From Aldrovandia affinis (Eukaryota > Chordata > Actinopteri > Notacanthiformes > Halosauridae), in the NCBI GenBank assembly GCA_029706075.1, contig JAINUG010000047.1:4833830-4897829 (forward strand): 64,000 nt of DNA. The letters are read 5' to 3'. The position numbers were made by a program, and so were the translations under genes. Below the pieces are notes generated by a model, which saw only the letters and a program-made list of their open reading frames with translations, had not been told where the DNA came from and did not search any database. Positions 622 to 40,480 of this stretch are shown here, piece after piece (the first letter of the stretch is position 1; the number at the start of each line of letters is the position of its first letter).

Positions 622-651
622 GTATTGTGGCAGCCCAAAGGGTTGCCCCAG

Positions 652-690
652 AAAATGGCTGCCTGGCCTCCAACACATGGCAGCCATTTT
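652..690 (+). promoter_or_regulatory. Inverted pair of YY1-like sites in the NA1 LTR
   Basis: AAAATGGCTGCC (652-663) and its exact reverse complement (679-690) face each other across 15 bp in the U3 part of the LTR. The AAATGGC core is the core of vertebrate YY1 sites. The same pair recurs in the 3' LTR, and the NA2 LTR also has one CAAAATGGC core. YY1 binding is an inference; the sequence shows only the inverted repeat and the motif. Confidence 0.5.
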
Positions 691-776
691 CACTACATTT
701 CCCAGCAGACCACAGAAACACCTGAACGAAGTCAGGCAATGGGAGCTAACGACCAGCTGAAGGCCATTGCAAGGCC

Positions 777-784
777 TATTTAAA
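777..784 (+). promoter_or_regulatory. TATA-like box of the NA1 LTR
   Basis: TATTTAAA lies mid-LTR and is followed about 30 nt on by a likely start region before the AATAAA at 1090. The 3' LTR carries the same box. Confidence 0.6.
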
Positions 785-1197
785 GGGCTGAATCCCATTG
801 TTCTGGGAGAGGAGTAGGAACGTGAGTAGAAAGGAGTTGCTGAGTGCTGTGTGTTATAGAGAGAGAAACCTGTGAAGTCGCTGACCAGCCAGGATTAGAA
901 AGGAGTGTTGGAGTGTGTTTGTTTGTGTGTATTGGATTGCTTTGGATAACGAATACGGACTGGATTACGGACTTGGAACTGGATTTTGGATTTGGATTTG
1001 GACATTGACGACGAGAAAGGATTGCGGACTTTGTGTTTGTATTCCCCTGAAGACCCCACCCTGTGTTTTGTGTTTGTAAATAATAGTTTAATAAATTATC
1101 ATTTTGTTTTCAAACACTGCCTCCTCCTTGTGGTTAAACTTGCCTACGCCCTCTGCAAGGTCCGTGCGTGTCGCCCAACCCCTGGGGACACCACATA

Positions 1198-1214
1198 TGG
1201 TGGAGAACGCGGGC
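1198..1214 (+). promoter_or_regulatory. NA1 primer binding site, tRNA-Ala-like
   Basis: TGGTGGAGAACGCGGGC starts two bases after the LTR. Its complement ends in CCACCA and differs by about one base from the 3' end of a vertebrate tRNA-Ala as I remember it. The tRNA assignment is tentative. NA2 has a nearly identical site (39959-39975). Confidence 0.65.
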
Positions 1215-1267
1215 AGAGGGCATCATATATAGGCAAGAGGAGGTAGTAGTACTAAAAAAAATTAAAA

Positions 1268-2431
1268 ATGGAGTGTTTGAAACTGGGATGGATGTCAGAT
1301 CCGAAAATCTTCTCTTGGCTAGAGAAAGAGGGAAAGAAGCACTTGTCTCGGGAGCAGAGAGAGGTGATATCCGCCTTCCTGAGGTTGCCAGAGCAAACAA
1401 AAAGACGGACAATGGAAGCATGCCCAATGTTCCTGAGAAAGAGCCTGTCTGCTGTGTCTAAAGTGCTGTGTGAGATGAGTCAGGAGGTGTGGAACAAGGA
1501 GCAGGCCAAACTGGCACAAAGTGGTGCCCTGTGGTGTATCTGCTGTATGGAATATGGCCACCAACCCAGTGAGTGTTCCATGAGGGAAGAAGTCGGCTGG
1601 AAAGACCCAAAGAAGGAAGCCCAGGACTACCCCTGCTCTGTGGTGCCCCCTAGGGAAAAGAGTAAAAAGATCCCAGGTAGGCTGCAAAAGCAGCATAAAA
1701 GTGTCGCAGACAAGTGTGCTGATTTAGAGTCAGAATTAGGAGAGGCAAAAGTTGTGATCAAGGGCAAAGAGGACAAGATCCACAAACTGGAGCAATGTTG
1801 TCATGACCAGAAGGAAGCCCTGGTGAAGAACCAGAAGCGGGCGACCATTGTTGAGGACCAATGGCGAGTCACCCTCCGGGAGGTCCAACAACTGAAGAAT
1901 GCCCAGACTGAACTGTACCAGCTGAAGGTGGAGTTGGGGACCTCGGAGGAGCGCCACCTGCTGGCCGTGGGGAAATTGCGGGAGGAGCACATTGACTCCC
2001 TGAAAGTGCTGGGAATCATGGCTGGGGAGCTGGAGAAGGACAAAGCATCCCTGGGCAATGAAGTGCGGCAGGTAGAGGCCCACAACCTGGCGCTCGAAGA
2101 GCGGGTGAGTAACCTCACTAAAAAGTTGGAGGAAAAGAACCGACAGTGTCGGGACATCCAGGAGTCCCAAGACCAGGCTAAAGAGGAATATGCCAGGGCC
2201 TTGGAGGATGTCCAGAACAGGCTCGCCCAGAAGGAGGCGGAGCTAAAGAGAGCAGCGGAGACCCATGCGTCGAGGCAGAGAAACTCCGGAGCCGAGCGGA
2301 GCAGGAGATTGAGGAAGGCGGGAGCTGGAGGCTCAGCTGGAAGAGGTGAAGTATGTTCTAAAAGAACAAGAAGAGAACATTTTTGTTTTGCAGGAACTTC
2401 ACCTAACCACCTCTGCAGCCCTCCTGACTGA
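1268..2431 (+). CDS. NA1 gag-like protein, N-terminal part
   Basis: The 387-codon frame starts at the first ATG about 55 nt after the primer site. Residues 1-63 form a tryptophan-marked segment (W8 and W17 spaced W-x8-W-L) that aligns without gaps to the NA2 protein. A CCHC zinc knuckle follows: C90, C93, H98 and C103 with the CX2CX4HX4C spacing of retroviral and retrotransposon nucleocapsids. From about residue 140 the sequence is a long charged coiled coil rich in E, K, Q and L. After about residue 330 the frame loses coiled-coil character, and the coil resumes in the +1 frame from 2346, so an indel near 2270-2340 probably splits one protein. The likely role is packaging element RNA in a particle; no enzyme domain is present. 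Family name unknown to me. Confidence 0.7.
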   Translation: MECLKLGWMSDPKIFSWLEKEGKKHLSREQREVISAFLRLPEQTKRRTMEACPMFLRKSLSAVSKVLCEMSQEVWNKEQAKLAQSGALWCICCMEYGHQPSECSMREEVGWKDPKKEAQDYPCSVVPPREKSKKIPGRLQKQHKSVADKCADLESELGEAKVVIKGKEDKIHKLEQCCHDQKEALVKNQKRATIVEDQWRVTLREVQQLKNAQTELYQLKVELGTSEERHLLAVGKLREEHIDSLKVLGIMAGELEKDKASLGNEVRQVEAHNLALEERVSNLTKKLEEKNRQCRDIQESQDQAKEEYARALEDVQNRLAQKEAELKRAAETHASRQRNSGAERSRRLRKAGAGGSAGRGEVCSKRTRREHFCFAGTSPNHLCSPPD

Positions 2432-3554
2432 ACAAAGCAAAAATGAAGAGCTCCCTCTAATGCGAGAGGAAATACAGGTCTTAACTGAGAGGCTGGACCA
2501 GAAAGAAGCCCAGCAGCGGGCCACCGAGAATTCATTTCTTCAAATATTAAAAAACCAAACCGACACTCTGCTGGATCTACAGGATCAGTTGAAAAGGGTG
2601 AGTGAGGAATTTGAATTTGTGACTCCTAAACCCGATGTAAAAGACTCTAGCACGCAGGTGGAGAACGCACAGCCAGGTGAGCTGGCAAGAGATGATGACC
2701 AGACATTGGAGTGGGGACAATGGTCCTCGGTCCCACTCAGCCTGCCGGACCTTCAAGGGAGCCTAGAGGAGCTATGGGGGGACCATAGTGTGAAGGAAAG
2801 CCTCTTGGCAATACCAGAGGCCTGGTGGACCACCCAACCCTCTCCTGAAGTGGTGAGTATATCTCCTTCCCTGAAGTTGAGGAACGAGAGAAGAAAAGTG
2901 GATATTGGTGGTTTTCCCTTGAAGAGAAATGGAAAACTGAACAGGCTGACGGTTAAAGGAAAAGGTGATTTGAAGGAAAGAAGGACAAAGAAAGACAAAG
3001 ACAAAATTAACAGTGTTGTGAAGAGCATGTTTTCCCCAGTTACCCCACCTGACCCCCTGAAAGGAAAAGGGATGTGGAAGAAAAGGCCAAAGAATGGACT
3101 ATGGAGGAAAAGGCTGCACAGGGTTCGCTGGAGCAGCCATGGAAGGCGGGTGAGGACCAGAGCAAGACTGGTACTTGTCCGGTCCATGAAGCCCAGAGCC
3201 AGTACCCACATGTGGCCAGTTGGGGGCAAACAAGGTGAGCGACTTTCGCCATTTCCTAACGGCTTGCAGATGCTTTTTCAGACCGTGAATGGAGAGGGAA
3301 TCTGGACGTTTGACCCGGGTGGAAAACTGCCTGAGTGGACCTGGAGAGGGGGACCCTCCTGGTGGCCGCGGGACATAGGCCGCTCAGCCCTCCCGAGGTC
3401 AGAGCTGAGGAGGAGGGTGTGTGGCAGCCCAAAGGGTTGCCCCAGAAAATGGCTGCCTGGCCTCCAACACATGGCAGCCATTTTCACTACATTTCCCAGC
3501 AGACCACAGAAACACCTGAACGAAGTCAGGCAATGGGAGCTAACGACCAGCTGA
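2346..3554 (+). CDS. NA1 gag-like protein, C-terminal part (frameshifted)
   Basis: This frame opens at a GTG and overlaps the upstream ORF in another frame, so it is better read as the continuation of the same protein than as a separate gene. Its first ~90 residues continue the coiled coil (heptad-like L, E and Q pattern). An acidic Trp-containing stretch and a long Lys/Arg-rich basic region (about residues 170-290) follow; the basic region may bind nucleic acid. The last codons run through the polypurine tract into the 3' LTR, so the true stop may lie inside U3. No pol motif (DSG, YxDD or DDE) is seen. Confidence 0.6.
   Translation: MKYVLKEQEENIFVLQELHLTTSAALLTEQSKNEELPLMREEIQVLTERLDQKEAQQRATENSFLQILKNQTDTLLDLQDQLKRVSEEFEFVTPKPDVKDSSTQVENAQPGELARDDDQTLEWGQWSSVPLSLPDLQGSLEELWGDHSVKESLLAIPEAWWTTQPSPEVVSISPSLKLRNERRKVDIGGFPLKRNGKLNRLTVKGKGDLKERRTKKDKDKINSVVKSMFSPVTPPDPLKGKGMWKKRPKNGLWRKRLHRVRWSSHGRRVRTRARLVLVRSMKPRASTHMWPVGGKQGERLSPFPNGLQMLFQTVNGEGIWTFDPGGKLPEWTWRGGPSWWPRDIGRSALPRSELRRRVCGSPKGCPRKWLPGLQHMAAIFTTFPSRPQKHLNEVRQWELTTS
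3402..3419 (+). promoter_or_regulatory. NA1 polypurine tract
   Basis: A purine-rich run containing GAGGAGGAGGG abuts the 3' LTR, where the plus-strand primer of an LTR element is expected. Confidence 0.7.
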
Positions 3555-3989
3555 AGGCCATTGCAAGGCCTATTTAAAGGGCTGAATCCCATTGTTCTGG
3601 GAGAGGAGTAGGAACGTGAGTAGAAAGGAGTTGCTGAGTGCTGTGTGTTATAGAGAGAGAAACCTATGAAGTCGCTGACCAGCCAGGATTAGAAAGGAGT
3701 GTTGGAGTGTGTTTGTTTGTGTGTATTGGATTGCTTTGGATAACGAATACGGACTGGATTACGGACTTGGAACTGGATTTTGGATTTGGATTTGGACATT
3801 GACGACGAGAAAGGATTGCGGACTTTGTGTTTGTATTCCCCTGAAGACCCCACCCTGTGTTTTGTGTTTGTAAATAATAGTTTAATAAATTATCATTTTG
3901 TTTTCAAACACTGCCTCCTCCTTGTGGTTAAACTTGCCTACGCCCTCTGCAAGGTCCGTGCGTGTCGCCCAACCCCTGGGGACACCACA
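3420..3989 (+). repeat. NA1 3' LTR
   Basis: This is the second 570-bp LTR copy. I found one substitution relative to the 5' copy. The target duplication GTAT follows directly. Confidence 0.93.
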
Positions 3990-3993
3990 GTAT

Positions 3994-4582
3994 GTAGCCA
4001 GGGTTGTAACATGTAATACTGTATCTTGAAATACTGCATCTACTGCAGCGAAAAAAGCTATCCTGCAGCTCTGGATAAACCCAGATATAGCATTGAAGGA
4101 ATATTGGATATTAACGGTACAATACATTGGGAATTTAGAATGTACTACAGCAAGATTAAATAAAGCTAAACCTGCAACAGTGCAGGCCTGGGCAGCAATC
4201 TCTTTAACAATCAAGAACTTTCTTTTGGATAAATCAATTTTATAGCTGTTTTTATGATCCTGTATATAATCCTGGTATCATACATGACTTATTTATTAAA
4301 ATGTCCTTCTCATCAGAAAGGTGATGCATGATCACTGTATGGTGTGAATATGTAGTGTTGACTGTAGTGAGAGTATGTCTGTAGTGTTTGAGTTTTGTGT
4401 TTGTATAGGTTAGTTGTATGTGTATGGTAGTTATATATGTCTGAAAATCAATAAAAATGTTAATCACAAACAAACAAAAAAATACTGTATCATGAAATAC
4501 TGTACCTCTATATTTATTTTTGCCCACCGCTAGCACCAGGTAAGGGGGAGATATATACATATAGTGGCCATCATTACATATA
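3994..4582. other. Unannotated intergenic DNA
   Basis: The stretch is AT-rich with no gene. A short motif (aatactgtatc..tgaaatactg) occurs twice, near 4013 and 4489, which may be the edges of an old small repeat; I cannot define its ends. Confidence 0.4.
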
Positions 4583-5260
4583 CAGTGCCCTACAAGTCTA
4601 CACCCCATTTCAGAAATGTCACCTTTTGTAGCCTTACAGCCTGAAATGAAAACATTAAATAAATAATTTTCTACCTTTATTTACACTTTTTACCCTTTTT
4701 AACTTCCAAAAACTGTCAATTTCTCTACATTCATTAAAAATAAAACAATAAAACAACTTGGATTCATGAGTCTACACCCCACTGAGTTAGTACCTAGTAG
4801 AAAAACCCATTGCTTGAATTACAGCCATGAGTCTGTTTGGATTGGGCAACATTTGCCCATTCTTCCTTACAGAACAGTTCAAGCTCAGTCAGATTACATG
4901 GAGGCTGTCGATGGACTGCACTCTTCAAGCCATTCCACAAGTTCAATAGGATTTAGGTCAGGGCTTTGACTAGGCCACTCAAGGACATTCACCTTTTTAT
5001 TTTTTAGCCACTCCACTATTGCTTTCGCTGTGTTCCTTGATTTGTTTTCATGCTGAAAGGTGAGCCTCCTCTCTGATCAGTCTTCTTCTGGCGCAGTTAT
5101 CCAGCTTGAACGGACGGTCTGATCTAGGCAAGGTCCTGGTTGTGCCATGCACTTACCACTTCTTAATTATGGTCTTGACCGTGCTCCAAGGGATATTTAA
5201 GGTGTCCGAAATCTTTCTGTACCCATTTCCTGATGTGTGTGACCACTACAAGAGTGGGGT
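4583..5260 (-). mobile_element. Degenerate Tc1/mariner-like remnant
   Basis: It begins with CAGTGCCCTACAAGTCTACA next to a TA, resembling the CAGTGCCTTGCAAAAGTATTC type of end in fish Tc1-like elements. Inside are phrases typical of the reverse complement of such elements, such as the stretch around 4876-4980 with GGATTTAGGTC and TTTGACTAGGCCA. No usable transposase frame survives and the matching right end is missing. The family call rests on remembered similarity. Confidence 0.5.
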
Positions 5261-8200
5261 CTTACAATACTGAACTACGCCACTTTGGGAGTGTTACCTA
5301 AAGAGAACCTTAGCTTTATCACCTTAAGAAAAGAGGGTTTTCCCTGCCTATGTCACCTATGCCAGAATCCGCCACTGATCAAGGAGTTTAGATGCCGTGG
5401 ACAAGACAAATGTGAGTGAAACAATGATGATGATATGTTGATCACAAGAACAGATTGCCATGAACAGAGAAGCAAGGCTTTCCCAACATTATTTTTGTAA
5501 ATCCAATGGATCAATTTGAACCTGAATTGGAAATCACTATAAACCTCAAATGTAATTTAATTGTAACTTTTTGCAATAACATTTTTAATATGCTTTATAT
5601 TACTCTGCACACGTGGAACTGCATATCCATGGAAATGTATTTAGTATCTTCAAAATAATCTTTATAAAATATAAAGATTATATAAAATATCTAAAAGTTC
5701 CCTGAGACTTGTTGGAATGATACAAGTGGGTTTCATTTTATCATTAGCCTTTTCTTAGGTTGAATTATGTATTTAGCTATGCTGGAAAAGCTCAACAATA
5801 TTTAATTCAAAATAAGAACTAAAAAAAAGTTGAGTAAAAGGCTACCATCTGGTCATCTTTGAACTTAAATCTGTTAATGAAACAATTCTGCAAAATGCTA
5901 GAAAACTTTGGTTTTCTATTGTGAACACCCAGCAAAGTTCCTATTCTCTCCACATACAGTTGAACATCTTACATTTAGAAAACAACACCACATGGTTGTG
6001 TTTATCTTAAGCCATATAATTAACATGAAAAGGAATGAAGATGTGTTCAATCCTGGGTGGCTCACAGAGCATGTCTGCCTTCTGGGGTGTAAATTTGTTG
6101 GGCTACCAGTTTTAAAGATCTTGAGAGTAACACTGCACTACTCTTGGGAGTAGAACAAACATATATCAATGTGCCTCAATACAAACTGAGGAATGTTCTC
6201 TGACATTGAGAGGAGCAGCTAAGGCAGTCTTATATCACCATGTAGTCTGTCTGTAATCCCGAACAAACAGAAAACTATGAAGAAAAGTATTTCGATTTTT
6301 TGAAATGGCCTGAACAATTTTACAAAAAACTATAATATAATAACATACATTTATATTAATCAATTTAATATTTTAGCTAATAGCAACATACTAGCAAGCT
6401 AGGGAAATATTGTAATTTCTAGAATATGTATCTTTCTTCTACATAATTAAATGTCAAACCAATATCAGTAATTCATTTTAGGAAGCATGCTATTCTCAGC
6501 CTAGATATCCAACATGCTTGAGTAAAACCTGGATCTGGAAAACAGGAAACACACGCACATTAATGAGAAATATATTTGTAGGTCACATCCTATGAATTTA
6601 ATATACAGTAGTTTGCCTGGAAAGTAAAGGCAAATATATTGGCAGTTCTGACATGACATTGTCATGACATGATATTGCCATGACGCTATCCATCATAACC
6701 TTCAAGGTCAGCTGTATAAAGTATATATACTTTACAACAAAGGTGTTTTTACTCAAAGTAAAGCACATTCAGTCTTTTAGCTTTTTGTTTAACTATATAG
6801 AACCCTTGATCACGTAATGCAAACAGCCATTGAGTAAAAATAGTGATTCCTGCATTGCCTCCTCTGCAGTCACATTTCCAATAAAATAGCTTCATATGTT
6901 ATTTTTTGAGTGAAATGGTGATATATTTGGCAACATTGTCTTGCCCAGGGCAGAATAAATAATTTAATTCCTGTTGAGCTCATTGCTTTTGATGGCATTG
7001 AGGCAGGCAGGAGAGTTTGCAGAGCATTAAAATTTGAATTGGGTGGAAGTCATGCATATGTAGTGATATTGTAACATAAAACACTGATGAGGACTTTTGT
7101 ATGGTCATATATAATACAGTAACCTTATTATAAATATTACAGCTATGTTATTATTGGATTATGTTTACATAATAGAAATGAGCTCATAATGATCAATATA
7201 AGGCAATTCTTTATTAGTGGGGTGCATCTGATGATTAATAAATATTCTTCACAATATTTATTTCCTGATATGGCTTTTAAAATTCATCATTAGATTTTAA
7301 AAAAATGTTTCCCTGCTTCAAACATCGAGACATAAAAAAATGTTTGGGTAATTCCCTTGGCTTTTAAAATAGAAGCACTTGGGTATTCTAAGCTTCCCAT
7401 ATATGTTTTTACTGGCACAAGTTGCCATGGAAATAAACCTCAACCTATGCAACACCAATGACAGGATAATATAGTGCAAGCTATGGTGGGACCCGTTTGC
7501 ATACAATAATCAGTTTCCATTTCTCTCTTTCCTTTTGCTATGCCTGGTGGTCCCCTGATCCCAATGACCTTAGCCATGTGTTTCCCCTTTTTCTTCTGAT
7601 CTCAATTCAGTGGCCAGTAGAAATACCAATACCATACAAATTGAACTCTTAACCATTCTCAGGCCCCTCATTTCCCACTGCTCTCCAGTCTGCTTTCCGT
7701 GTACTGGAGGAATAAAGATATATCTTTAGTGTTTCACTGAATAGCTTTTGAAGCCTCTTAATCTCAGTTACACACATTTATTTTTGCAGTTTTGGACAGA
7801 AACATGTTGTATTAATACAAAACCCCTGCATACATATTGGACCCATTGCAACTAATACAGTTTACTTGGCATGAGAAAATTTGATCATCCAACCTAGTTA
7901 CTCTTTCCCCTGAAAATGAATGATTTTAATTAAATTAATGATTTTCATTTGTTGTGCATTTATAAGCATGTGAAAATGTGTTGTGACCAGGACCTTTCCT
8001 TTTTGTTGTCAAGGTGTAGTTTGTATTATAAAGCCCCCTTTTCAAAACAAGCTCATTAGAAGCTTACTGGACAGTGGTCACACACAAGTGGCAGGGTGTG
8101 TTTATTTAGATTTTATTTACATTTTATTTTTTGGTGCTTTGTGCAATCCCTGGATTTCCTCCACATGCAGGGTTTATTCTTGAAAAATGTTTATGTCTAT

Positions 8201-8362
8201 GCATATTGTTCAACTGAAATAACTCAAAGAAATATGTGAAATGGGGAAATCTAACACTGTGAGTGATTAATTCTTTGTTTTTAGTAACTATTGCTTTTGT
8301 TACATGTGTTGTGGCAGAATGTGGTCACTTTCTGTATGTTGGTTTATTGGCCAGGACTCTCT
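5261..8362. other. AT-rich intergenic DNA
   Basis: About 3.1 kb without a recognisable gene, transposon end or RNA. Frames are shorter than 85 codons. Stretches near 6880-7060 and 7900-7960 are AT-rich and low in obvious repeats; whether they are conserved noncoding elements cannot be judged without alignment. Confidence 0.5.
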
Positions 8363-8566
8363 TGTAAAATATTTATAATGCTAATGAGAGTTTTTAACCT
8401 GGTTAAATACAGGATAAATAAAATAAACAGGATAAATAAAATAAACAATATATATTATATTATATATATATATATATATAATATATATTGTTTATATATT
8501 GTTTGTTTTATTTATCCTGTATTTAACCAGGTTAAAAACTTTCATTAGCATTACAAATATTTTTAT
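8363..8566. repeat. Long inverted repeat around an AT core
   Basis: The left arm, about 8363-8425, containing CCTGGTTAAATACAGGATAA, is repeated in reverse complement at about 8506-8566, with a TA-rich centre at 8450-8490. The arms match over roughly 60 bp with few mismatches, so the DNA could fold into a cruciform or hairpin. The GGTTAAATA..GGATAAATAAA phrase is common in fish interspersed repeats, so this may be two facing copies of a short element. Confidence 0.75.
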
Positions 8567-8582
8567 TTGTATAAAATATTTG

Positions 8583-8608
8583 TATATATATATATATATA
8601 TATATATA
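8583..8608. repeat. TA dinucleotide microsatellite
   Basis: About 13 uninterrupted TA units. Confidence 0.9.
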
Positions 8609-8609
8609 C

Positions 8610-9472
8610 AGTTGCCTGGAAGACTGACATTTTTCTGTGTGTCCTCTGGCTCATTTCCAGGCATAATTATGTTTTTTAAATCTTGAGTTCAGATGCCAGG
8701 GGCGAGCTCACCCAAACCTAGACTTACCCTTTAACTTTCTCTGTTAAAATGCACTTATGTGAAGGAGGTGTAGCTAGAGACATTAATGTGCTACTGCATA
8801 AACATAATTTTTTTTCAGGTTTAAGGACTACACACTATGATTTAAAGCTCCAGTCACAGTCATGCTGGCCTTCACTTTCCCAGAAAATTCCGTCCACAGT
8901 TGGAAGTTCCAGATCACGTGACCCAGAAGAGTGAGGGGTTCCCAGCAATGCCAGAAGAAAAAGTCATAAACCTAAGAAAGGATCCATAAAATAAATATAT
9001 TTAATGCTTTAAACTCAGTCGTTTTGGCTGTCATTTGTGCTTTTTCTCATTCTCTCTTGCTTCTCAACATTCAAGTTCAGGGTCAGTGATGTATTACACT
9101 GGGGAGCTCTTAAGTTTTCTTCGCTGTGGTAATGTTGAATATTTAGTATTGGGTTTCAGCACTAATTAAAGCTTTATTTCTTCTCCTTAGAAGCAGGTCT
9201 TCACAGTCATACAACTTTAATTGTACACCACATGCCTTCATTATATTTCCTTAATGTAGAGTATATCTCAATGTATGAATTATTTTTAATGTTTTAAATT
9301 CTCCATTCTTAAATTTTCTGCTACTGAACACCCATTTAACGTGTGCATACATTCACTGGCCATTTCTTTCTTTCTCTTTTCCCCATTCATGATGATGACA
9401 TCCAAGCTAATTTAATAGTATTAACTTGAATATGTATTTGTATAAATACTCTCAATGAGTTACACTCAAAAC
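8610..9472. other. Unannotated intergenic DNA
   Basis: No gene or defined repeat seen; frames are at most about 60 codons. It ends at the target duplication of the SINE at 9484. Confidence 0.45.
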
Positions 9473-9483
9473 TACTGTATGGT

Positions 9484-9840
9484 GGGGCCTCCCGCGTGGT
9501 CTAGTGGTTTCAACGTCCGATGCTGGCCACGCGACCAGGGTTTGATTCCCTGTCGCGCCAGAGTCGGCTCTGATCGGGAGTGCCATCGGGGTGGCAATTG
9601 GCTGTCCACCCCAGGGAGGGGAAGCCGACACACACAGTTTGCTGTGCACAGGAGTGGTTCTGGGGTACCGGAATTACAGTCGACGGCACGACGAGTGCTG
9701 TCTCGGAGGAGGCAGCGCTTCAGCCTTGTCACTGCCGGTCACAGAACTACGGCAGCGAAATATGAGGGAAGGGGGATTGAACTGAGCACAGCGGGTAATT
9801 GGCTACCAAATTGGGAGAAAAATGGGGTAAAAAAAAAAAA
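9484..9840 (+). mobile_element. tRNA-derived SINE
   Basis: The 5' head is tRNA-like. It has a pol III A box TGGTCTAGTGG (9497-9507) and a B box GGTTTGATTCC (9539-9549), one or two bases off the tRNA consensus. A body of about 250 bp follows and ends in ATTGGGAGAAAAATGGGG plus an A-rich tail. An 11-bp target duplication TACTGTATGGT flanks it at 9473-9483 and 9841-9851. The copy at 24744-25131 (opposite strand) has the same body, with matching GGAGTG.., TCTCGGAGGAGG-like and tail segments. The LINE that moved it cannot be told from the tail. Confidence 0.88.
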
Positions 9841-9851
9841 TACTGTATGGT

Positions 9852-10704: not shown

Positions 10705-10709
10705 ATATC

Positions 10710-26419: not shown

Positions 26420-27204
26420 AACTGAGAAATACTGCATCATCCTATCAGTCTTTACTGTCTGTGTTTTCTTCTGCCGTCACTGCCGCTAAGGCAATCTTCT
26501 ACCAAACTAAAATTCAAAATTCAATATCTAAACCTTGTCAACTGTTCTCTATTTTCTCCTCTCTCCTCAGCACACCTCCTCCCCCACCTCAGTCCCCCTT
26601 CACTGCAGATGACTTTGCTGCTTTCTTCGAGGAGAAAACTGCAGACATCCGCAGCTCCTTTGTGCCCTCCACTCCCGCTGCGCCCTCCACTCCCGCTGCG
26701 CCCTCCACTCCCGCTGCGCCCTCCACCCCCGCTGCGCCCTCCACTCCCGCTGCGCCCTCCATTCCCGCTGCGCCCTCCACTCCCGCTGCGCCCTCCATTC
26801 CCGCTGCGCCCTCCACTCCCTCTGCGCCCTCTGCGCCCTCCACTCCCGCTGCGCCTTCCACTCCCGCTGTGCCTTCCACTCCCGCTGTGCCCTCCACTCC
26901 CTCTGTGCCCTCCCCCTGCTTCCCCTCTTTTTCTCCCCTCTCAGACTCTGATATTTCCCACCTCCTCCTCTCCCACCGCCCTACCACTTGTGCCCTCGAC
27001 CCTATCCCTTCATCCCTCCTCCAGGCGATCACACCTGACATCCTCCCATTTGTCACCTCCCTTGTGAACTCCTCCCTGTCTTCTGGTTGTTTCCCCTCAC
27101 CCTTCAAAAGGGCCCATATCACCCCTCTGCTGAAAAAACCCACTCTAGACCCCCTCAGTTATCCAGAATTATCGCCCAGTGTCCCTCCTCCCCTTCCTGT
27201 CTAA
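26420..27204 (+). pseudogene. L2 ORF2 linker region with expanded STPAAP repeats
   Basis: The frame includes SSFVPSTPAAP repeats, then SPLSDSDISHLLLSHRPTTCALDPIPSSLLQAI and the start of RT (SLSSGCFPSPFKRAHITPLLKKP). It breaks just before the NYRP block near 27165. Confidence 0.82.
26663..26920 (+). repeat. 18-bp coding minisatellite
   Basis: About 14 units of GCCCTCCACTCCCGCTGC, each coding Ala/Ser-Thr-Pro-Ala-Ala-Pro, including one 9-bp short unit. They sit in the linker between the endonuclease and RT parts of the LINE, a segment that in the copy at 59449-59901 is not repetitive. Confidence 0.9.
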
Positions 27205-29681: not shown

Positions 29682-29686
29682 AGTAG

Positions 29687-30730: not shown

Positions 30731-30823
30731 GGATTTCTCTGCATTACATTCTGCGAGCTGGCAGTTCACCAGTCGTTACCGTGATTGCAAGCAAGTGCCT
30801 GAACATTTAATTTCTTATATTAG
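30731..30823. repeat. Direct repeat within the hAT shell
   Basis: About 90% identical to 31178-31270 (TTTCTCTGCATTACATTCTG ... TTTCTTATATTAG). A gap of about 355 bp separates the copies. Confidence 0.8.
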
Positions 30824-31177: not shown

Positions 31178-31270
31178 GGTTTTCTCTGCATTACATTCTG
31201 TGAGTTGGCAGTTCACAAGTTGTTACCGTGATTGCAAGCAGGTGCCTGAATATTTCATTTCTTATATTAG
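31178..31270. repeat. Direct repeat, second copy
   Basis: Partner of 30731-30823. Confidence 0.8.
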
Positions 31271-31514
31271 CGAACTGGTGGTTTGGACGTGGGCTACAAC
31301 CTAATCACTAAGGTTGCATCTTCCTGCCATTCTACTTTGCGAGCGGATGTGGACAAACAGATTCATCCTTCGGCAATCGTCCATCATTGACTGCGTATTG
31401 CCCTCTGCTGGCAAACTCGATGAACTGTGAGCCAGGAAACACTTCACGGATTTACTCAAGTAAGACTGGGCTACAATAACAGTATATTTCCTATTCCTGG
31501 TAGCTAGCTTGCTA

Positions 31515-31604
31515 GCTGACATATCGTTTGCCTCTCTTGACCAGCGTTAAAGGAGGCAAGCTGACATATCGTTTGCCTCTCTTGACCAGCGTTAAAGAAG
31601 GCAA
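31515..31604. repeat. 45-bp tandem duplication
   Basis: Two adjacent 45-bp units beginning GCTGACATATCG differ at a single base (GGAGG against GAAGG), indicating a recent duplication. Confidence 0.92.
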
Positions 31605-31771
31605 CGTGGTTTGCGAAGCATGAAATTAACTTGTTTCTTTACAGTGTTGCTGCAGCCGCACTGTCAAACAGCTGTGTTTACGGATACTCCATATCAGCTA
31701 ATTATTTTAGACAGTACTCAATATCAGAATTGGCCAAGAGAAAATGGTATCAGTGCATCACTAATGACTAG

Positions 31772-32395
31772 TTATAAATAGGCCTAGTATTTTCCAGTGG
31801 ATAATTAAATCAAATATGATTTATGAAATTATTAAATTAAATCTGACTCTATAATTTGTTTGGTCTTATTCATATTCATGGCATGGGTCTCTCTGAATTA
31901 TGTTGTGGTGAGTGAGAGGGGGAGTGTATACAAACTTTAAAACAAATGCGTGCTTGAAAAGATGGTAAAGCGCGAGAGGCAGTCCACCTTGTCAAATGTA
32001 ATTCTTAACTGAGGTCTCAGGCTAATGTTATACATGGTTTATGTACATAAGTTGTACATAAGTAATCACTGTGTACAGTTCATTTGTCATGCGACTACTA
32101 AACAATCATCCTGTCATGTGAAATGGAAAGTTTCAACAAGACAGGACCTCACGCAATTCGTGCTGATGAATGGCACCTTCATAAGGCAGTCCTGAATATT
32201 GAGTTCCTGAATATTACGGCATTCATATTCAGCATCATGTTCAGACTTTTATTGGCCTACCTTTACTTAGTAGAGAAGAAATATGTTAACTGTGTGCCAG
32301 ACAAGATTAAATTAAACCCTCATCAAACTTACATTGCTTCCTAAAATGTAAATAGGAAGGGCACATTTTTTACATTTTTAACACTGGGAAGGAAA
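31772..32395. other. Unannotated intergenic DNA
   Basis: No gene or repeat with defined ends. The 73-codon frame at 32123-32344 has no family motif. Confidence 0.4.
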
Positions 32396-33310
32396 AGGTT
32401 AGTCATTTATTCTTATTATTATTTTAAATGAGTAAGCAGGGATACATATACAAGAAGTATTGAACAAGTAGGCAGTGGTGATGACAATTGACAGAATTAA
32501 GTGGTAGTGGAGTCTGAAAAGGTGGGTTTTGAGTCTCTTGCGGAAGATCGCAAGTGATTCCGCGATCCTGACTGATTGCGGAAGGTCGTTCCACCACTGA
32601 GGGGTCAGGACAGTGAAGAGGCGAGACCGCGAGGAGCAGCTGCCGGGCGCCCAGAGGGATGGGACAGTCAGTTTGCCAGAGGAGGCGGAGTGGAGGGGTC
32701 TGACTGGGGTGTAGGGTGTGATGAGTGTCTGGAGGTAAGGGGGAGCAGTTCCTCTAGCCGCTTGAAAAGCAAGCACCAGTGATTTGAATTTGATGCGTGC
32801 TGCGATGGAGAGCCAGTGCAGAGAGGAGTGTAGAGGGGTGACATGGATGAACTTAGGTTGATTGAACACCAAACGTGCGGCAGCATTCTGGACTAGTTGC
32901 AGTGGCTTGATGGCACAGGCTGGTAGGCCTGCCAGCAAGAAATTGCAGTAGTCCAGACGTGAAATCACCAGGGCCTCGACCAGGAGTTGTGTGGCCTCTT
33001 GGGTGAGGAACGGTCAGATCCTCCGGATGTTGTGGAGGGAGAATCGGCAGGTCCGGATGATCGCTGCGATGTGGCCCAAGAAGCACAGTTGGTCGTCCAG
33101 GGTCACTGCAAGACTCCTGGCAGGCTGGGATGGAGACACTATGGAGCCTTCCACGGTGATTGAAGCATCAATCATCGGGGAGCCCTTCGCTGGGAGGAAG
33201 AGCAGCTCAGTCTTCCCCAGGTTCAGCTTCAGGTGGTGGGTGGACATCCAGGCAGAGATGTCAGCCAGGCATGCAGAGATCCACACCGGATTGGAAGCTG
33301 ACACTTTTTT
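32396..33310 (-). mobile_element. L2-clade LINE fragment
   Basis: The minus strand codes the end of RT and the C-terminal domain: HHLKLNLGKTELLFLP, then ISRLDYCNFLLAGLPACAIKPLQLVQNAAARLVF and PQWWNDLPQSVR in the 189-codon frame 32399-32968. A frameshift near 32990 separates the two. The 3' stem-loop and TGTAA tail are not visible, and the 5' end stops at about 33310 just before the YADD region. Confidence 0.9.
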
Positions 33311-33315
33311 AAAAT

Positions 33316-34647
33316 AGAATACTGAATGAATGATCTCACTCCAAGACCAAGAAGTCAGCACCAATTCACATTGTCTCACCTGAAGTGACATAAAACAGGA
33401 TACAAACAATACACCCTGCAGCATAGCCCTTTTTGGGAGGTACTCCTGGAGACCCATTCAGTGCAGCATATAAGCAGTGTGAACCTGTTATATGCTAAGG
33501 CTATATTACACAGTTGCAGGAAAGGGAGAATCAGGAAGCATTTAATGAAAACAAGCTGGTTTTCCTTTTGTCTGTGCTGATAATGACCAGTTGTATTCCT
33601 GTGTCTTGATATCCTGTAGACCACTCCACATGCATCATATGTGGATACATTTAATTACATAAATAACTTTGTGTATTGGATAGTTGTTCTTAATTTACTG
33701 CAAATGGAGTGTCAGGACTGTAGACCTTTCTGGTGTGAAACAGCCAAAGGTCTGTAATAGGAATCTTTCTGCCATCCTTGGGCCTTCAGTGTTAATTTTA
33801 ATAAAATATGAGGGAAATAAACAAAGTCCTTGCACAAAATCATTTGGTGCGTTGGCTTAATAAAGAATCCAATATAAAGGATTGCATGTTGTTTAAATGT
33901 ATCACTTTTTTATTTGGCACGTGTTAAATTAAAAAGTCATACATTAAAACAACTGAGTGTGGATAAACTTTCTTTATATATAAAAATAAAAGAGGAAAAG
34001 AGCAACTGCTGTTATGTAGGGCTGGGCATATAATAATCAGAGGCATAGGCATGATCTCCCCAACAGGCTTTCACATGAAAGGCATTGTGGCAACTGTTGA
34101 TTTCCGTATGGCTATGAAATGGCCAAAATTTCATACAGTGTGTGCCTTTTTCTATTGTGTAATTCATTCTAAATATTCCAACTGCCTTAAGAACTCCTTT
34201 ACTGTGTGAACAGGTTACAAAAAGGATGTAACTACCTACTACTTTATTACTTCACAGTATATAACAGACTGTAAATTGTTTTTTAGACGCTGTTAGACTT
34301 GGATTTCTTAAGGCCGACCACTAAAAGTGGAGACGATTTCTGAGAATTATCCAAGATCGTTGTAATCCATGTCTCATACAAGCCTTTCTTCTTCACAATA
34401 AACACTGAGTTTAATGCCATCAAAACCATTACAACCATTACAATCAGCCCCATTTAAATAATGGATGATGAATTGCTCTCCACTTCTAGTGTGTTTGTTG
34501 ATGCTTAATTTCACAGCACCCCCACCTTCCTCATCCCCCTGAGTTAAAGACAGCTTACTGCACAGAGGACTGACTGGCACACAGCCTCCCTCTCTGCACG
34601 CTACGCTACCAGGGGTGTCTGCTGCCGATTCGCTCAGCCCCCATAGC
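33316..34647. other. Unannotated intergenic DNA
   Basis: About 1.3 kb without recognised genes. The 114-codon minus frame at 34374-34718 starts inside the CR1-like LINE end and has no domain. Confidence 0.45.
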
Positions 34648-34750
34648 GTGAATGAACATAAGAACATAAGAATACATAATAATGAGAACGGGCCGTTCGG
34701 CCCATCTAGGCTCATCATGTCCTAATCTAAAGAGTATCTAGTACTACATC

Positions 34751-35678
34751 TGTGATGAACGGGATAAGGACCCAGACGCAGACCAGGATCAGGCAAAAGG
34801 AACGTTTAATACAGGCAGGGATCAAAAACCAGGAATCAGAGAATCGGAGGTACAAAACGCGAGGCAGAGAGAAGTCGAAAAACAGGCAGTCAAAGGTCGA
34901 TAAACAGGAAGGCAGAAAGGCAAACAAACAAAATCGCTAGGCAGGCTCGGGGTAGTCAACAGAAGGGTAGTCTCGGAAAAATCTATAAACACTGGCTTCG
35001 GAAAAGTAGGCTCAGGGAATAAGAATCAACGTACTGACACGGAGAAATGAAAACACTGAACATATATACTGGGAGACACAATGGAAATCAGGTGAGACAA
35101 TGAGGAGAGAGAGGAGGGAACACAGGGAATCGATAATTAAATAACAAGGGGAAACGCAAGACACGGACACTAAAGCATACAAACATATAGACAATAAACG
35201 ACCTGGGAGAACAGGCAGACACGTGCATAGTAAAGGGGAGGTACGCAAAGAGAAACGTTGCGTGCGTATGAAGAGAGAATGGAGGCGAACAGGGATAGGA
35301 TAATGAGAGAATGAACGATAGATAGAAGCGTGAGATAATTAGTGATTAGTAGTGTTAGTAACTAAATCTAAATCCCTAACGTTAGTAGATTAGTTAGTTA
35401 GTACTGTACACATCTAACTAATATATACAAAGTGCGATAAAGAAAGTAGGAAGGAAGAAAACGAGAATATAAGCGAATGCGGAAATACCCGAAAGTAACG
35501 ACCCGAAGTGCATGACAAGACAGGGAGTGGATCACGAACTAAGACGGAACAGAAACAGACAGGGAGCGGGATGTGACAGAACAATGAAAACACAATACAG
35601 AATAACGAATAACGAAAGGGAACAGATGAAACATAAACTACGACCAAAAACCACAGAACAGGGACTCAGAATATAACA
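34751..35678 (-). repeat. Gypsy-3 3' LTR (928 bp)
   Basis: TGTGATGAACGGG ... AGAATATAACA ends. The inferred RNA start complement AACGTACTGAC is at 35028-35038. A 333-bp piece of the same LTR family lies at 50949-51281. Confidence 0.94.
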
Positions 35679-35690
35679 GTACCCCCCCCC
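35679..35690 (-). promoter_or_regulatory. Gypsy-3 polypurine tract
   Basis: Ten G in a row on the minus strand, three bases from the LTR. Confidence 0.75.
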
Positions 35691-35767
35691 AAAGGAACGC
35701 CCCATGGCGTTCTAACAGGGGGCACAAAAACAAAAACAGAAAAAACAGGAAAAGCAGGGGGAAGCCA

Positions 35768-35962
35768 GACAGACAAGGGACAACGCAGGTGGCAGAATCT
35801 CAGACCGGCAAGGGGCAAAGCACGGGACAGGAACTCCGACAGGCAGGGGGGCAAAACACGGAGCAGGATCTCAGACAGGCAAGGGGCAAAACACGGAGCA
35901 GGATCTCAGACAGGCACGGGTCAAAACACTGGACAGAATCTCAGACAGGCAGGGTCAAAACA
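35768..35962 (-). repeat. 35-bp tandem repeats in the Gypsy-3 3' untranslated region
   Basis: Five to six diverged units with the pattern GGCAAGGGGCAAAACACGG ... ATCTCAGACA (plus strand) lie between the chromodomain and the polypurine tract. Confidence 0.85.
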
Positions 35963-35964
35963 CT

Positions 35965-36636
35965 AGACACTTGAAAGTCTCTGATTAAAGTCTTGTCCAA
36001 GATGAAGCGGGATGGGACCCAGCTTCGTTCCTCGGGACCGTAGCCCTCCCAGTCCACCAGATATTGCGACCACGGCCCCCGGCGAACGTCCAAAAGTTTG
36101 CGGACCGTGTAGGCATCTCCACCATCAATAAGACGGGGGGTGGGGGTGGCTCAGGGGCGGGACACAAAGGGTGGGTTACAAGGGGTTTGAGGCGGGAAAC
36201 ATGGAAAGTGGGGTGAATACGTCGCATGGTGTGAGGTAATTTCAATCTAACAGCAGTGGGACTGATGATTCTAATGATGGGAAAGGGGCCAATAAAACGG
36301 GGTGCGAGCTTACGGTGATCCATCTTAAGGGGAATGTCTCTGGTGGTCAGCCAGACCCGTTGTCCCACACGATAACGGGGAGCCTCGGAGCGTCTCTTGT
36401 CAGCAATGTCCTTCATACGGGAACTTGCTCGGAGAAGGTTGCGGCGTGTGAGTCTCCAGGTGCGCCGACATCGGCGGATGAAAGCCTCGGCAGAAGGAAC
36501 CCCCACCTCCTTCTCCTGGCTAGGGAATAAGGGTGGTTGGTAACCAAGACAACACTCAAAGGGGGACATCTGGGAGGAAGAGGAGGTATGGGAGTTGATG
36601 GCATATTCAGCCCAGGGCAGCTGTTGACTCCAGTAG
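35965..36636 (-). pseudogene. Gypsy-3 integrase C-terminus and chromodomain
   Basis: From about 36636 the frame reads the end of integrase ([19 protein letters not shown] ... [16 protein letters not shown] ... APRFIGPFPI). The chromodomain ([17 protein letters not shown]) is readable at about 36100-35965 in a shifted frame; within the ORF that ends at 35985 this part is garbled. Upstream lies the deletion junction with RT. Confidence 0.85.
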
Positions 36637-37476
36637 ATACTTATTCATAGTGTCAATCTCGGGACGGGACAAGGAAAACAGGCGCCCCCTAGGAGGGGTA
36701 GTACCAGACAGAAGTTCGATGGCGCAATCATAGGGGCGATGGGGAGGTAGGCGGGTGGCTCGGGATTTACAGAAAACCTCCTTGAGGTCCAGGTACTCGG
36801 GGGGAATGCCAGATAGGTCAGAGGGTTTCTCGGGAGAAAGGGAACTCGGAACAGAAGACAGGGGGCTCGGAACAGAAGAATGAGCTTGCTGTAGGCACTG
36901 AGAGAGACATTGTGGGCTCCAACCCACAATCCTGTGCCTGCTCCACTCCAAGGAGGGGTTATGTCGAACTAACCAGGGATGACCCAGAACAATGGGAGCG
37001 TGAGGAGAGTCAATAATGTACAACTTTATCTTCTCCTGATGGTTGCCGGAGATGCGCAAGGTCAAAGGAGAACTAGAATGGGTTATGTGGGCAAGTGTTT
37101 GCCCGTTGAGTGAGTTGGCCACCAGAGGGCGTGAAAGCCTGGAAACCGGAATACCCCACCTCGCAGCCACACCAGCATCCAGAAAACTCTCCTCAGCGCC
37201 GGAGTCAATGAGGGCGGTGGTCTCACGCATCTGGTCTCCCCACTCTATCGTCACAGGCAGGCAGGTGCGTTGTTTGGAGGAAGAGTCGACATGGAGTACG
37301 CCCACTAGTGTCCCTCTACTCACTAACGGGCGTTGGCCTTTAACCGGGCAGCTGGCAATGAAATTACCCGGTTGACCGCAGTAGAGGCAGACCTTGGAAA
37401 CCCTCCTCCGCTCACGCTCCTCTCTGGTCAGACGAACCTGGTCCACTTGCATGGGTTCCGGTTCCGATGTAGGTGT
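36637..37476 (-). pseudogene. Gypsy-3 gag end, protease and start of RT
   Basis: The frame resumes gag at the NA2 insertion point and passes a zinc knuckle that reads CLYCGQPGNFIASC, where Asn stands in place of the usual His. Protease follows with ALIDSGAEESFLD and IVLGHPWLVRHN, then the RT leader [29 protein letters not shown] in part and FSLSRPEID. It ends at the deletion junction near 36640. Confidence 0.88.
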
Positions 37477-37975
37477 TGTGACATCATGAGAGGTTTGACC
37501 AGGGCAGGTCGGTGTGGGGCAGTGCAACAACACACAAAAACAGGCAAAACACAGATAGTTCAAACTTAAAGTCCAGGTTTATTTCTCCTCAGGGCATCAA
37601 TGGGTACTTTCCTCCAAACAATAATCCATAATCCAAACATTCAAAAAATGCCTCAATCAAAAATGTTACAAGTCATCCCAGCAATAATCCTCTTCTTAGA
37701 AAACAATTCTCAATTCAAAAGGTTTACTTTCCTTGGTGTGGTTTGTTTCTTCCAGCTCCTTCCAGCCATGTGCTCGGCTCCTCTCTCTCTCTTCCTTTGT
37801 CCTGCGTGTGGGCTTTTTATGCTGGCCTTGATTAGGTGGCCCAAACACCTACACCTGGAGTTGTGTTGCATTGTGGGGCTTGTAGTGTGTACAACGGCGG
37901 CCATTTTGTGAAGTGGCCACCGATCAGCAGGGGAATGCAGCACTCCTCCACCACACGTCCCCCTGTGATGCCACA
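37477..37975 (-). repeat. NA2 3' LTR (499 bp)
   Basis: On the minus strand it begins TGTGGCATCACAGG and ends CTCATGATGTCACA. A TATA-type GCATAAAAAG lies at 37813-37822, AATAAA near 37579, and a YY1-like CAAAATGGC near 37905. Confidence 0.94.
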
Positions 37976-37995
37976 CATCCCTCTCCCCGTGCCTG
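37976..37995 (-). promoter_or_regulatory. NA2 polypurine tract
   Basis: GGGGAGAGGGA on the minus strand directly precedes the 3' LTR. Confidence 0.7.
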
Positions 37996-38714
37996 CCGCC
38001 CTCGGCAGGGTGAACGAGGCCCCCCGGATCGAACACTCGGCTCTCCCAACAGATCAGGGAGATGATGCAGAAGTTCTGTAACGCAAAGGGCACAGTTATG
38101 CTGAACGTGAGGCACACACTCACCATGGCTCCCCCTAGCTGGGGAAGGAAGACGGTTGATCCCTTGGACCACAATGAGGGCACAGTTACTGGAAGACCCA
38201 CACTGGTGTGGGGTGAGAAAACCACCGGACGGGTGTCCAGCCAGGGCAGCATGGTGCCTTCCACTTGCCCCACGGGACAAGGCAACCTGCAGGCCTCATC
38301 TGGCCTCACGGGACCAGGCAACATGCGGGCCACCAGCAGACCCACTGGGCCACGCAGTGAGGCGACATTAGCTGGGCCCTCCAGGTTGTCGCCATCTATG
38401 CCAAACACTACCATAGGCTCCACTGGTTCAAATTCAGCTTCTGCCTCCGCCTCAAACTCAGCTTCCGCGGGCTCGGGTTTGACGATGGGCACTGCTTCCG
38501 GGACAGGCTCCAAGTCACTTTGTGATTCCTCTGTGCTTCCTGTGGCTGCGAGACTGACTGGTGCAGGCTCCTCCATGACAAGGTGAGGAACTTCCTCCTG
38601 GGCAGGTTCTGGGGCTTCCTCCCCAGCCTTCGTTTCAGGCTCCAGAATGGGCTCTGGCGCCAGGTCTGCAGTGGGCTCACCTGCTGGGACAGGCTCTTCT
38701 GCTTGACTGCCCGT

Positions 38715-38759
<45 letters not shown>

Positions 38760-39554
38760 AGGTTCGGGCTCAGGTTCGGGCTCAGGTTCAGGTTCAGGCT
38801 CAGGTTCGGGCTCAGGTTCGGGCTCAGGTTCAGGCTCAGGTTCAGGCTCAGGTTCAGGCTCAGGTGCAGCTTCTTCCACTGCCGGTTCTGTGGTTGCAGT
38901 CTCGTCTGTGGGTGCCAGGACCTCGGTACTCACCGTCTCCTGGACAATCTCCTGGACTGCCTCAGCCACCACGGCTAACGCTGCAACATCACCTTCTGCC
39001 TTTTCTGCTACGGTGACCTCGTCTGCGGGTGGTGCCTCTTCTGCGGCCGGTGTCTCTAACACTTCAGCCGGCACTGGTTCCTCAGTCACTACGGCTGTCA
39101 CCACCTCCACGGCCCCTTTCTGTGAGGCTGCGACCACCTCTACGGCCCCTTCCTGTGAGGCTGCGACCACCTCTACGGCCCCTTCCTGTGAGGCTGCGAC
39201 CACCTCTACGGCCCCTTCCTGTGAGGCTGCGACGGCCTCCACGGCCCCTTCTTGTGAGGCTGCGACGGCCTCCCCCATGGACTCAGCAGCAACTTCATCA
39301 CTGTGCGCTTTCCTATCCATCGCTTTGGGAGCGGCAATGGGGGTCACCTCGGTCTGCTTCTCTACCGGGCTGGCAGTCTTCTTCTTATTCTTCTTCTTTT
39401 TCTTTTTCTTGGGGTCGGTAGCCTGGCATGGCTGCGGCTGGGGCTGGGAGTGTTGACTAGTGGGAGGGTGTAGTCCGTCCTCTTCTGGCTCAATGGCCCA
39501 TGGAGAAGGACAACTGGAGCCACCATCTCCATGAGACGAACAAGGTAGGTCCAT
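37976..39554 (-). CDS. NA2 gag-like protein, low-complexity C-terminal part
   Basis: The open frame (which runs on into the LTR to 37710) contains a basic [11 protein letters not shown] stretch, about six units of EGAVE(A/V)VAASQ, then a Pro-Glu alternating tract coded at about 38697-38873, then an acidic region. No enzyme motif is present. The lysine run may serve in place of the CCHC knuckle of NA1; that is inference. The frame differs from the N-terminal part at 39362-39901, and the best joint is a small indel near 39460-39480. Confidence 0.65.
38697..38873 (-). repeat. Pro-Glu coding microsatellite in NA2
   Basis: Hexameric GGTTCAGGCTCA-type units (plus strand) code about 28 Pro-Glu pairs on the minus strand. 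Confidence 0.92.
39086..39274 (-). repeat. 33-bp coding repeats in NA2
   Basis: Five to six units of 33 bp containing GCCCCTTCCTGTGAGGCTGC (plus strand) code the EGAVE(A/V)VAASQ repeats. Confidence 0.88.
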
Positions 39555-39901
39555 TTCACCTGCAGCAGTTCCTCCCTCTGGGTAGCCTCGTCTTCATCCA
39601 TGAAGTCCAGGATTGACTCAATGTCCCGCTGATCCAGGTACAGCTCCCCGTCCATCTGCAGCCAATGGTACACCTCTGGGGACCTCAGCCATCTCAGGTC
39701 CGCTTCCACATCCCGGCAGGGTTTGGGTGCTCCCTGGAGCCCTGGGTTGGGGCATTCCCCACCTTTTGGCTGGAAGTTTGCGGCAAGGCACAATAGCTCC
39801 GCTAGGAATTCTGCGGGGCAGGCTTCGAAGTCCTCCCATGTTATGCTCATTGGGGTGAAGGGCATCTCACCGAGACTAGGGCTTCCCTGCTGTTTAGCCA
39901 T
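39362..39901 (-). CDS. NA2 gag-like protein, N-terminal domain
   Basis: The frame starts at the first ATG about 60 nt after the primer site. Residues 20-60 form a Trp/Phe/Leu-rich segment. W71 and W80 with following Leu match W8 and W17 of NA1, and the alignment runs without gaps for about 43 residues (shared L, W, P, W, L, G, L, E, I, F, E, T, R). After about residue 140 the frame becomes Arg-rich and probably continues in the other frame. I do not recognise a named family; a matrix- or capsid-like role is inferred only from position. Confidence 0.68.
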
Positions 39902-39958
39902 TTTGCTGTGGCAGTGCTGAAAAAAGTTGAGTCAAGTCTTCCGCACTTAGGCCCCAGT

Positions 39959-39975
39959 GCCCGCATTCTTCACCA
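39959..39975 (-). promoter_or_regulatory. NA2 primer binding site, tRNA-Ala-like
   Basis: On the minus strand TGGTGAAGAATGCGGGC begins two bases after the LTR. It differs from the NA1 site at two of 17 positions. The complement resembles a tRNA-Ala 3' end; the tRNA identity is tentative. Confidence 0.68.
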
Positions 39976-39977
39976 TC

Positions 39978-40476
39978 TGTGACATCATGAGAGGTTTGAC
40001 CAGGGCAGGTCGGTGTGGGGCAGTGCAACAACACACAAAAACAGGCAAAACACAGATAGTTCAAACTTAAAGTCCAGGTTTATTTCTCCTCAGGGCATCA
40101 ATGGGTACTTTCCTCCAAACAATAATCCATAATCCAAACATTCAAAAAATGCCTCAATCAAAAATGTTACAAGTCATCCCAGCAATAATCCTCTTCTTAG
40201 AAAACAATTCTCAATTCAAAAGGTTTACTTTCCTTGGTGTGGTTTGTTTCTTCCAGCTCCTTCCAGCCATGTGCTCGGCTCCTCTCTCTCTCTTCCTTTG
40301 TCCTGCGTGTGGGCTTTTTATGCTGGCCTTGATTAGGTGGCCCAAACACCTACACCTGGAGTTGTGTTGCATTGTGGGGCTTGTAGTGTGTACAACGGCG
40401 GCCATTTTGTGAAGTGGCCACCGATCAGCAGGGGAATGCAGCACTCCTCCACCACACGTCCCCCTGTGATGCCACA
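39978..40476 (-). repeat. NA2 5' LTR (499 bp)
   Basis: No difference from 37477-37975 was found by eye. The internal 103-codon frames at 37600 and 40101 are the same LTR read twice, not genes. Confidence 0.94.
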
Positions 40477-40480
40477 GTGT

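Follow-up and report, generated by a model that had tools for sequence, protein, structure and literature searches.

Non-autonomous long terminal repeat (LTR) elements are, to our knowledge, mostly either non-coding or equipped with a recognizable gag. Among described systems, the TR-GAG elements (terminal-repeat retrotransposons with gag domain) come closest to those treated here, and elements of this type are thought to make their own particle and to borrow Pol. We analyzed a stretch of 64,000 nucleotides from Aldrovandia affinis (contig JAINUG010000047.1, positions 4,833,830 to 4,897,829; hereafter the window), which contains two LTR elements, NA1 and NA2. NA1 and NA2 resemble these plant elements in their LTRs, a single coding part, the lack of pol and presumed mobilization in trans, but differ in having no Pfam gag domain, an animal host, and coiled-coil and Pro-Glu-repeat proteins. 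NA1 and NA2 are best read as recent copies of two related non-autonomous lineages in Aldrovandia affinis, and we think it likely that these lineages are mobilized in trans by Gmr1-like elements of the Ty3/gypsy group. Non-autonomous LTR elements with a coding open reading frame (ORF) are a known kind; the NA1/NA2 protein and the pairing with Gmr1-like elements look new. No description of such elements was found among titles and abstract openings in the literature, a search that did not extend to Repbase and does not by itself establish them as undescribed. Among viral contigs, no relatives were found by the primer pattern, the NA1 protein, the two-domain alignment, the gag of the Gmr1-like relative L037 described below or the presumed transfer RNA (tRNA) end.

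End signals and a candidate enzyme donor

Both elements are structurally complete, with paired TG...CA LTRs, target duplications, primer sites and purine tracts, and the near-identical LTR pairs and 4-bp duplications reported in an earlier note on this sequence are present (Table 1). The shared LTR features described there are also found: both LTRs start with TGTGGCA and contain AAAATGGC (LTR positions 27 and 69). In both, AAAATGGC is followed by ACTACA, and these motifs presumably resemble YY1 and ZNF143 sites. The 19-base primer sites, ATGGTGGAGAACGCGGGCA in NA1 and ATGGTGAAGAATGCGGGCA in NA2, agree at 17 bases and differ at two, and in both elements the TGG of the site begins two bases past the 5' LTR, as had been claimed. 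The complement of the form that is commoner among relatives, TGGTGGAGAATGCGGGCA, has the shape of a tRNA 3' end with CCA, presumably that of tRNA-Ala. In both proteins, FDPGG is encoded shortly ahead of the purine tract (3309-3323 in NA1, 38033-38019 in NA2). Beyond the shared ends, the two LTRs align with a score of 24, no better than shuffled sequences, the best of which scored 30 in 300 trials. No third primer site with at most five mismatches occurs anywhere in the window, and the other LTR elements of the window were rejected as enzyme partners, none having a primer site within that limit.

In the 1.22-Gb Aldrovandia affinis assembly, the primer pattern CACANNATGGTGRAGAAYGCGGGCA was found at 135 places with at most two mismatches, and at none in the reversed control; being one base longer than the NA1 and NA2 sites, it counts relatives with a longer gap. 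Eleven of these places were inspected: eight were NA1 relatives, two (L033 and L038) were neither these nor Gmr1-like, and L037 led to a Gmr1-like family. L037 is a decayed element in which the same primer site lies ahead of a frame with weak Pfam matches (Mitovirus polymerase, expectation value (E) 0.011; SCAN, 0.041; Retrotrans_gag, 0.12), a putative gag to judge by its position and relatives. When the genome was searched with this frame, the best 150 of 1,315 candidates were scored and included open frames of up to 1,485 codons. The second-best match, and the best apart from L037 itself, was a related frame in element C1101, 80% identical.

The 5' LTR of C1101 has 524 bp (TGTGGCAGCC...CCTGCCACA) and is followed by TT and the primer site TGGTGGAGAATGCGGGCA. 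A second LTR, 97% identical to the first, lies at 1275733-1276242, and the element is flanked by a 4-bp duplication, ACCT, which abuts the two LTRs on their outer sides. A single frame of 1,479 codons holds the gag match, an integrase core (Pfam rve, E 4e-13) and reverse transcriptase (RT) residues recognized by eye, in that order. This frame opens at 1271499 and, from its length, ends near 1275935, about 200 bases inside the 3' LTR; the frames of NA1 and NA2 likewise extend into their 3' LTRs. An integrase upstream of the RT is a mark of Gmr1-like Ty3/gypsy elements (PMC3587641), and we therefore assign C1101 to this clade. The earlier note had proposed to look for an autonomous partner sharing the primer site and LTR ends, and one such candidate, a Gmr1-like element, was thus found. 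C1101 shares with NA1 and NA2 the TGTGGCA...CCACA ends, a gap of two bases, the primer site and the length of the duplication (4 bp). NA1 and NA2 differ from it in their protein and in that neither an integrase nor an RT was detected in them. In line with the claim that the two elements lack pol, Pfam searches of four window frames, the L012 frame and one L014 frame detected no protease, RT, RNase H or integrase.

For the enzymes of an LTR element to act on a template, the primer site must be correctly spaced, the LTR ends must be present and the template must get into the particle; NA1 and NA2 show the first two of these features. In the scenario that we favor, the single protein of each lineage combines the common N-terminal W-x8-W-L domain (W domain) with a tail that is otherwise unrelated between the two. 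The RNAs of both lineages would be copied into DNA and inserted by enzymes of Gmr1-like elements resident in the same genome, which would prime at the same site, likewise two bases from the LTR, recognize the same LTR ends and make the same 4-bp staggered cut. The NA1/NA2 protein would probably act on its own RNA or bind the Gmr1-like particle, not supply enzymes, and particle entry is the step at which it would most likely act. Mobilization in trans, already suggested in the earlier note, gains strength from the presence in this genome of a pol-bearing element that agrees in LTR ends, gap, primer site and the length of the duplication (4 bp); we infer it from these shared cis signals, and the role of the protein is likewise an inference.

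Several points weigh against this scenario. The complete set of cis signals comes from a single pol-bearing element, C1101, of the Gmr1-like group. The LTR of the candidate partner does not align clearly with that of NA1 (score 31; best of 300 shuffles, 28) or that of NA2 (score 25; best shuffle, 29), and the W domain has no significant match in the L037 gag. Furthermore, the signals compared were limited to the LTR ends, the gap, the primer site and the duplication length.

The W-x8-W-L domain and its families

Residues 6-49 of NA1 and 69-112 of NA2 align without gaps, with 13 identities in 43 residues and a Smith-Waterman score of 75; not one shuffle in 20,000 reached this score, and the fitted p lies between about 1e-6 and 1e-7. 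The alignment on which the earlier note relied is thus real. A profile built from five NA1-type domains (NA1, L014, L029, L030 and L032) and compared with 3,584 frames, taken from the window and from loci L009-L032, recovered NA2 at E 2.7e-5 with 22.4 bits, as opposed to 11.5 bits for the best of 2,000 shuffles; the absence of such a profile hit, which the earlier note had named as a refutation of its reading, was thus not observed. The next frame from outside the NA1 family, in L017, had E 1.3, and other frames at E 0.065-2.9 belong to NA1 relatives without the W domain, which the profile touches at its two ends only, as an internal deletion predicts. A second NA2 subfamily (L041 and L042) has a different N-terminus ahead of the W domain, and its domain matches that of NA1 with a score of 85, reached by none of 5,000 shuffles. 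The alignment, the profile and the L041 match support the proposed common descent of the N-terminal domain in NA1 and NA2. The domain is thus common to NA1, NA2 and L041/L042, and the sequence on either side of it is exchanged. Chance and composition, which an identity of just about 30% over 43 residues might bring to mind, are an extremely improbable source of the similarity in view of the 20,000 and 2,000 shuffles, none of which came up to the observed scores, and of the independent cis traits.

The W domain evolves under coding constraint within the NA1 lineage. By the Nei-Gojobori method, nonsynonymous divergence (dN) stays below synonymous divergence (dS) between NA1 subfamilies (for example, dN 0.19 and dS 0.68, or 0.16 and 0.77), with dN/dS of about 0.2-0.7 across the ten subfamily pairs that exclude L029; the samples are small, L039 has an internal stop, and L029 is mostly too distant for a usable dS. 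The comparison of NA2 with L041 (dN 0.11, dS 0.17) says little on constraint.

NA1 and NA2 belong to multi-copy families in Aldrovandia affinis. The NA1 LTR has at least 41 matches in the genome (40 of 4,370 candidates scored). Of 20 stretches inspected around such matches, L009-L014 hold LTR pairs with an interior and others solo LTRs or fragments. An exact 4-bp duplication flanks the drawn ends of 16 of 20 NA1-family insertions inspected; L014, L017 and L025, three of the misses, abut another NA1 interior on the left, and L013, the fourth, lies within a TA repeat. The three abutting copies are perhaps tandem elements with a shared LTR.

For NA2, the N-terminal 134 residues have at least 152 genome matches (150 of 524 candidates scored). 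Among the matches listed, dozens are 93-99% identical, a further group covers residues 62-134 only, and 29 relatives have open frames of 600-792 codons in which the match is free of stops. In the four NA2-family copies inspected, the LTR pairs are 98.4-99.8% identical, and all four carry a 4-bp duplication. Several of the duplications, in both families, fall in AT repeats, so that each of these taken alone counts for little. Two further observations concern this family: the copy number of the 11-letter protein repeat of NA2 differs between copies (L043, reverse strand, 1571-1987), and in L041 (from 802) and L042 (reverse strand, from 788) the reading frame of the long ORF takes in the primer site, which would code for M-V-E-N-A-G and overlaps a possible start codon.

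The W domain is missing from the interiors of L009-L012, L023 and L028, in which the protein region that follows is kept. Bases 53-294 of the NA1 interior have no counterpart in these six copies, and L009-L012 have 85 other bases instead. Several such copies exist, which suggests that an element can do without the domain in cis or receives it in trans. Past interior base 294, NA1 and L009 are 97.9% identical, but they differ ahead of this point, a pattern that suggests recombination between NA1 subfamilies.

Recombination of this sort also makes it conceivable that NA1 and NA2 are independent elements, each of which acquired Gmr1-like ends and, in an event of its own, took the W domain from a third source, and the LTR bodies that fail to align and the protein tails that look unrelated by eye would fit such a history. 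We nevertheless consider it unlikely, as the first ORF of both elements carries the domain toward its N-terminus, the primer site is the same, and the 3' ends are similar, with FDPGG near the purine tract. Common descent of two lineages that are mobilized in trans remains the reading that we prefer. The single undescribed family of the earlier note is better described as two diversified lineages attached to the known Gmr1-like clade.

Nature of the encoded protein

The interiors have the length of about 2 kb given in the earlier note (2,224 and 2,002 bases), whereas its single protein is not encoded in one frame in either window copy. The coding part switches frame once in each; the sequences were taken as they stand, and no bases were restored to mend the frame changes. 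Single long frames occur in some relatives, with 674 codons in L012 and 684-792 in L040-L042. The 387-codon frame of NA1 has 17 database relatives at E 2e-4 or below (7,997 candidates scored), all from Aldrovandia affinis and named merely hypothetical or uncharacterized. These proteins (P0001-P0017) share the coiled coil of NA1, and P0001, which is 81% identical to the NA1 protein over 68% of the query, also has the CCHC knuckle; the W domain was seen by eye in none of the 17. In the protein collection, no relatives were found for NA2 among 63 candidates, nor for residues 1-175 of the L041 protein among 746.

That these proteins are Gag is unproven, and the only feature that fits the term gag-like used in the earlier note is the CCHC knuckle, which was recognized by eye in NA1 and several relatives; none was seen by eye in NA2, and Pfam gave no zinc-knuckle match in the window frames. 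No Pfam gag family matched NA1, NA2 or the relatives scanned. A model of the NA1 W domain, built from an alignment of two sequences, has 72 residues and six helices at a confidence (pLDDT) of 78, and Foldseek matched it to no solved fold and gave no assignment. Solved structures gave no match for NA1 residues 1-155 and six non-significant ones for NA2, the best being Tapasin (E 0.18). The SCAN domain, which is linked to Gmr1-like gag, is like the W domain a small helical domain, and the SCAN domain of ZNF24 was among the Foldseek rows; at E 7.3 and a template modeling (TM) score of 0.31, and with no Pfam SCAN match in the NA1 and NA2 frames, this match gives no support for a SCAN identity. Homology of the W domain to Gmr1-like gag, tested on L037, was rejected (3.0 bits, rank 69 of 2,358 sequences, the rest being shuffles), as was a match of NA2 to the L037 gag, whose score was reached by 275 of 5,000 shuffles.

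The absence of a Pfam gag match could also mean that an ancestor of the elements took up the W domain, in a single event, from a host protein. We regard this as very unlikely: the relatives recovered with NA2 were NA2-family copies where inspected, although no systematic search of host genes was made, and the Tapasin match is not significant.

Three roles are conceivable for the protein: it may be a Gag that has diverged, it may link the element to the particle of Gmr1-like elements as an adaptor, or it may be a helper that binds RNA. A true, fast-diverging Gag, which would build its own particle and borrow only Pol from Gmr1-like elements, is a serious contender to which we give somewhat less than an even chance. 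The long ORFs kept in many copies, the constraint on the NA1 domain and the knuckle of NA1 all speak for it, and the N-terminus of L041 resembles the start of the C1101 gag (FIPKLGVTDDVEADL against FILKLMDNDDIEAYL, in this order), a lead only, with a score of 37 that was reached by 52 of 5,000 shuffles. This rival is weakened by the lack of Pfam and fold matches, by the loss of the W domain from several NA1 copies and by a second resemblance, between the L041 N-terminus and the L037 gag, which is not significant (score reached by 3,073 of 20,000 shuffles). Alternatively, the W-domain proteins could be adaptors rather than Gag, docking factors that tie the element RNA to the Gmr1-like particle by means of a replaceable tail. 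In one lineage this tail would be formed by the zinc knuckle with the coiled coil, in the other by lysine and Pro-Glu tracts. We put this forward as a doubtful but specific proposal. If true, it would describe a protein-coding parasite of a parasite, in which the docking domain is kept and the rest is swapped.

Layout of the window and significance

The coordinates of both elements are given in Table 1.

Table 1. Features of NA1 and NA2, in window positions
Feature	Position	Strand	Remarks
NA1 element	626-3989	+	paired LTRs, interior 2,224 bases
NA1 5' target duplication GTAT	622-625	no strand	
NA1 5' LTR, TGTGGCAGCC...GGACACCACA	626-1195	+	570 bp, one mismatch to 3' LTR
NA1 primer binding site TGGTGGAGAACGCGGGCA	1198-1215	+	two bases past LTR
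NA1 first open frame	1268-2431	+	387 codons; N-terminal W domain, CCHC knuckle, coiled coil
NA1 W-x8-W-L domain	1283-1414	+	residues 6-49; alignment and profile
NA1 CCHC knuckle, C-x2-C-x4-H-x4-C	1535-1576	+	motif by eye
NA1 second open frame	2346-3554	+	remaining coiled coil, basic stretch, TFDPGG; enters 3' LTR
NA1 purine-rich stretch	3407-3419	+	ahead of 3' LTR, polypurine-tract-like; by eye
NA1 3' LTR	3420-3989	+	570 bp
NA1 3' target duplication GTAT	3990-3993	no strand	
NA2 element	37477-40476	-	paired LTRs, interior 2,002 bases
NA2 target duplication GTGT, left side	37473-37476	no strand	
NA2 3' LTR	37477-37975	-	499 bp, no mismatch to 5' LTR
NA2 purine-rich stretch	37976-37988	-	ahead of 3' LTR; by eye
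NA2 second open frame	37710-39554	-	lysine run, 11-letter protein repeats, Pro-Glu repeats, VFDPGG; enters 3' LTR
NA2 first open frame	39362-39901	-	179 codons; holds W domain
NA2 W-x8-W-L domain	39566-39697	-	residues 69-112; alignment and profile
NA2 primer binding site TGGTGAAGAATGCGGGCA	39958-39975	-	two bases past LTR
NA2 5' LTR, TGTGGCATCA...GATGTCACA	39978-40476	-	499 bp
NA2 target duplication GTGT, right side	40477-40480	no strand	

NA2 is nested in another Ty3/gypsy-like element (34749-42249, minus strand), the long repeats of which lie at about 34749-35678 and 41314-42249. These repeats are nearly identical, and it thus seems that two young insertions are nested here. Elsewhere in the window, direct repeats of about 740 bp (46810-47546 and 54931-55667) are 99.2% identical and 8.1 kb apart; LTR-like ends and a target duplication were not recognized, and no stop-to-stop frame of more than 165 codons lies within 46800-55640. 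An array of 9/18-bp repeats at 26611-26967 codes for (PSTPAA)n within a frame and is followed by a frame that looks RT-like by eye.

Two multi-copy lineages in the Aldrovandia affinis genome keep an unusual protein, and a candidate donor of the enzymes can be identified in the same genome. With such a defined pair of elements, the contribution of a coding satellite to its own spread becomes testable.

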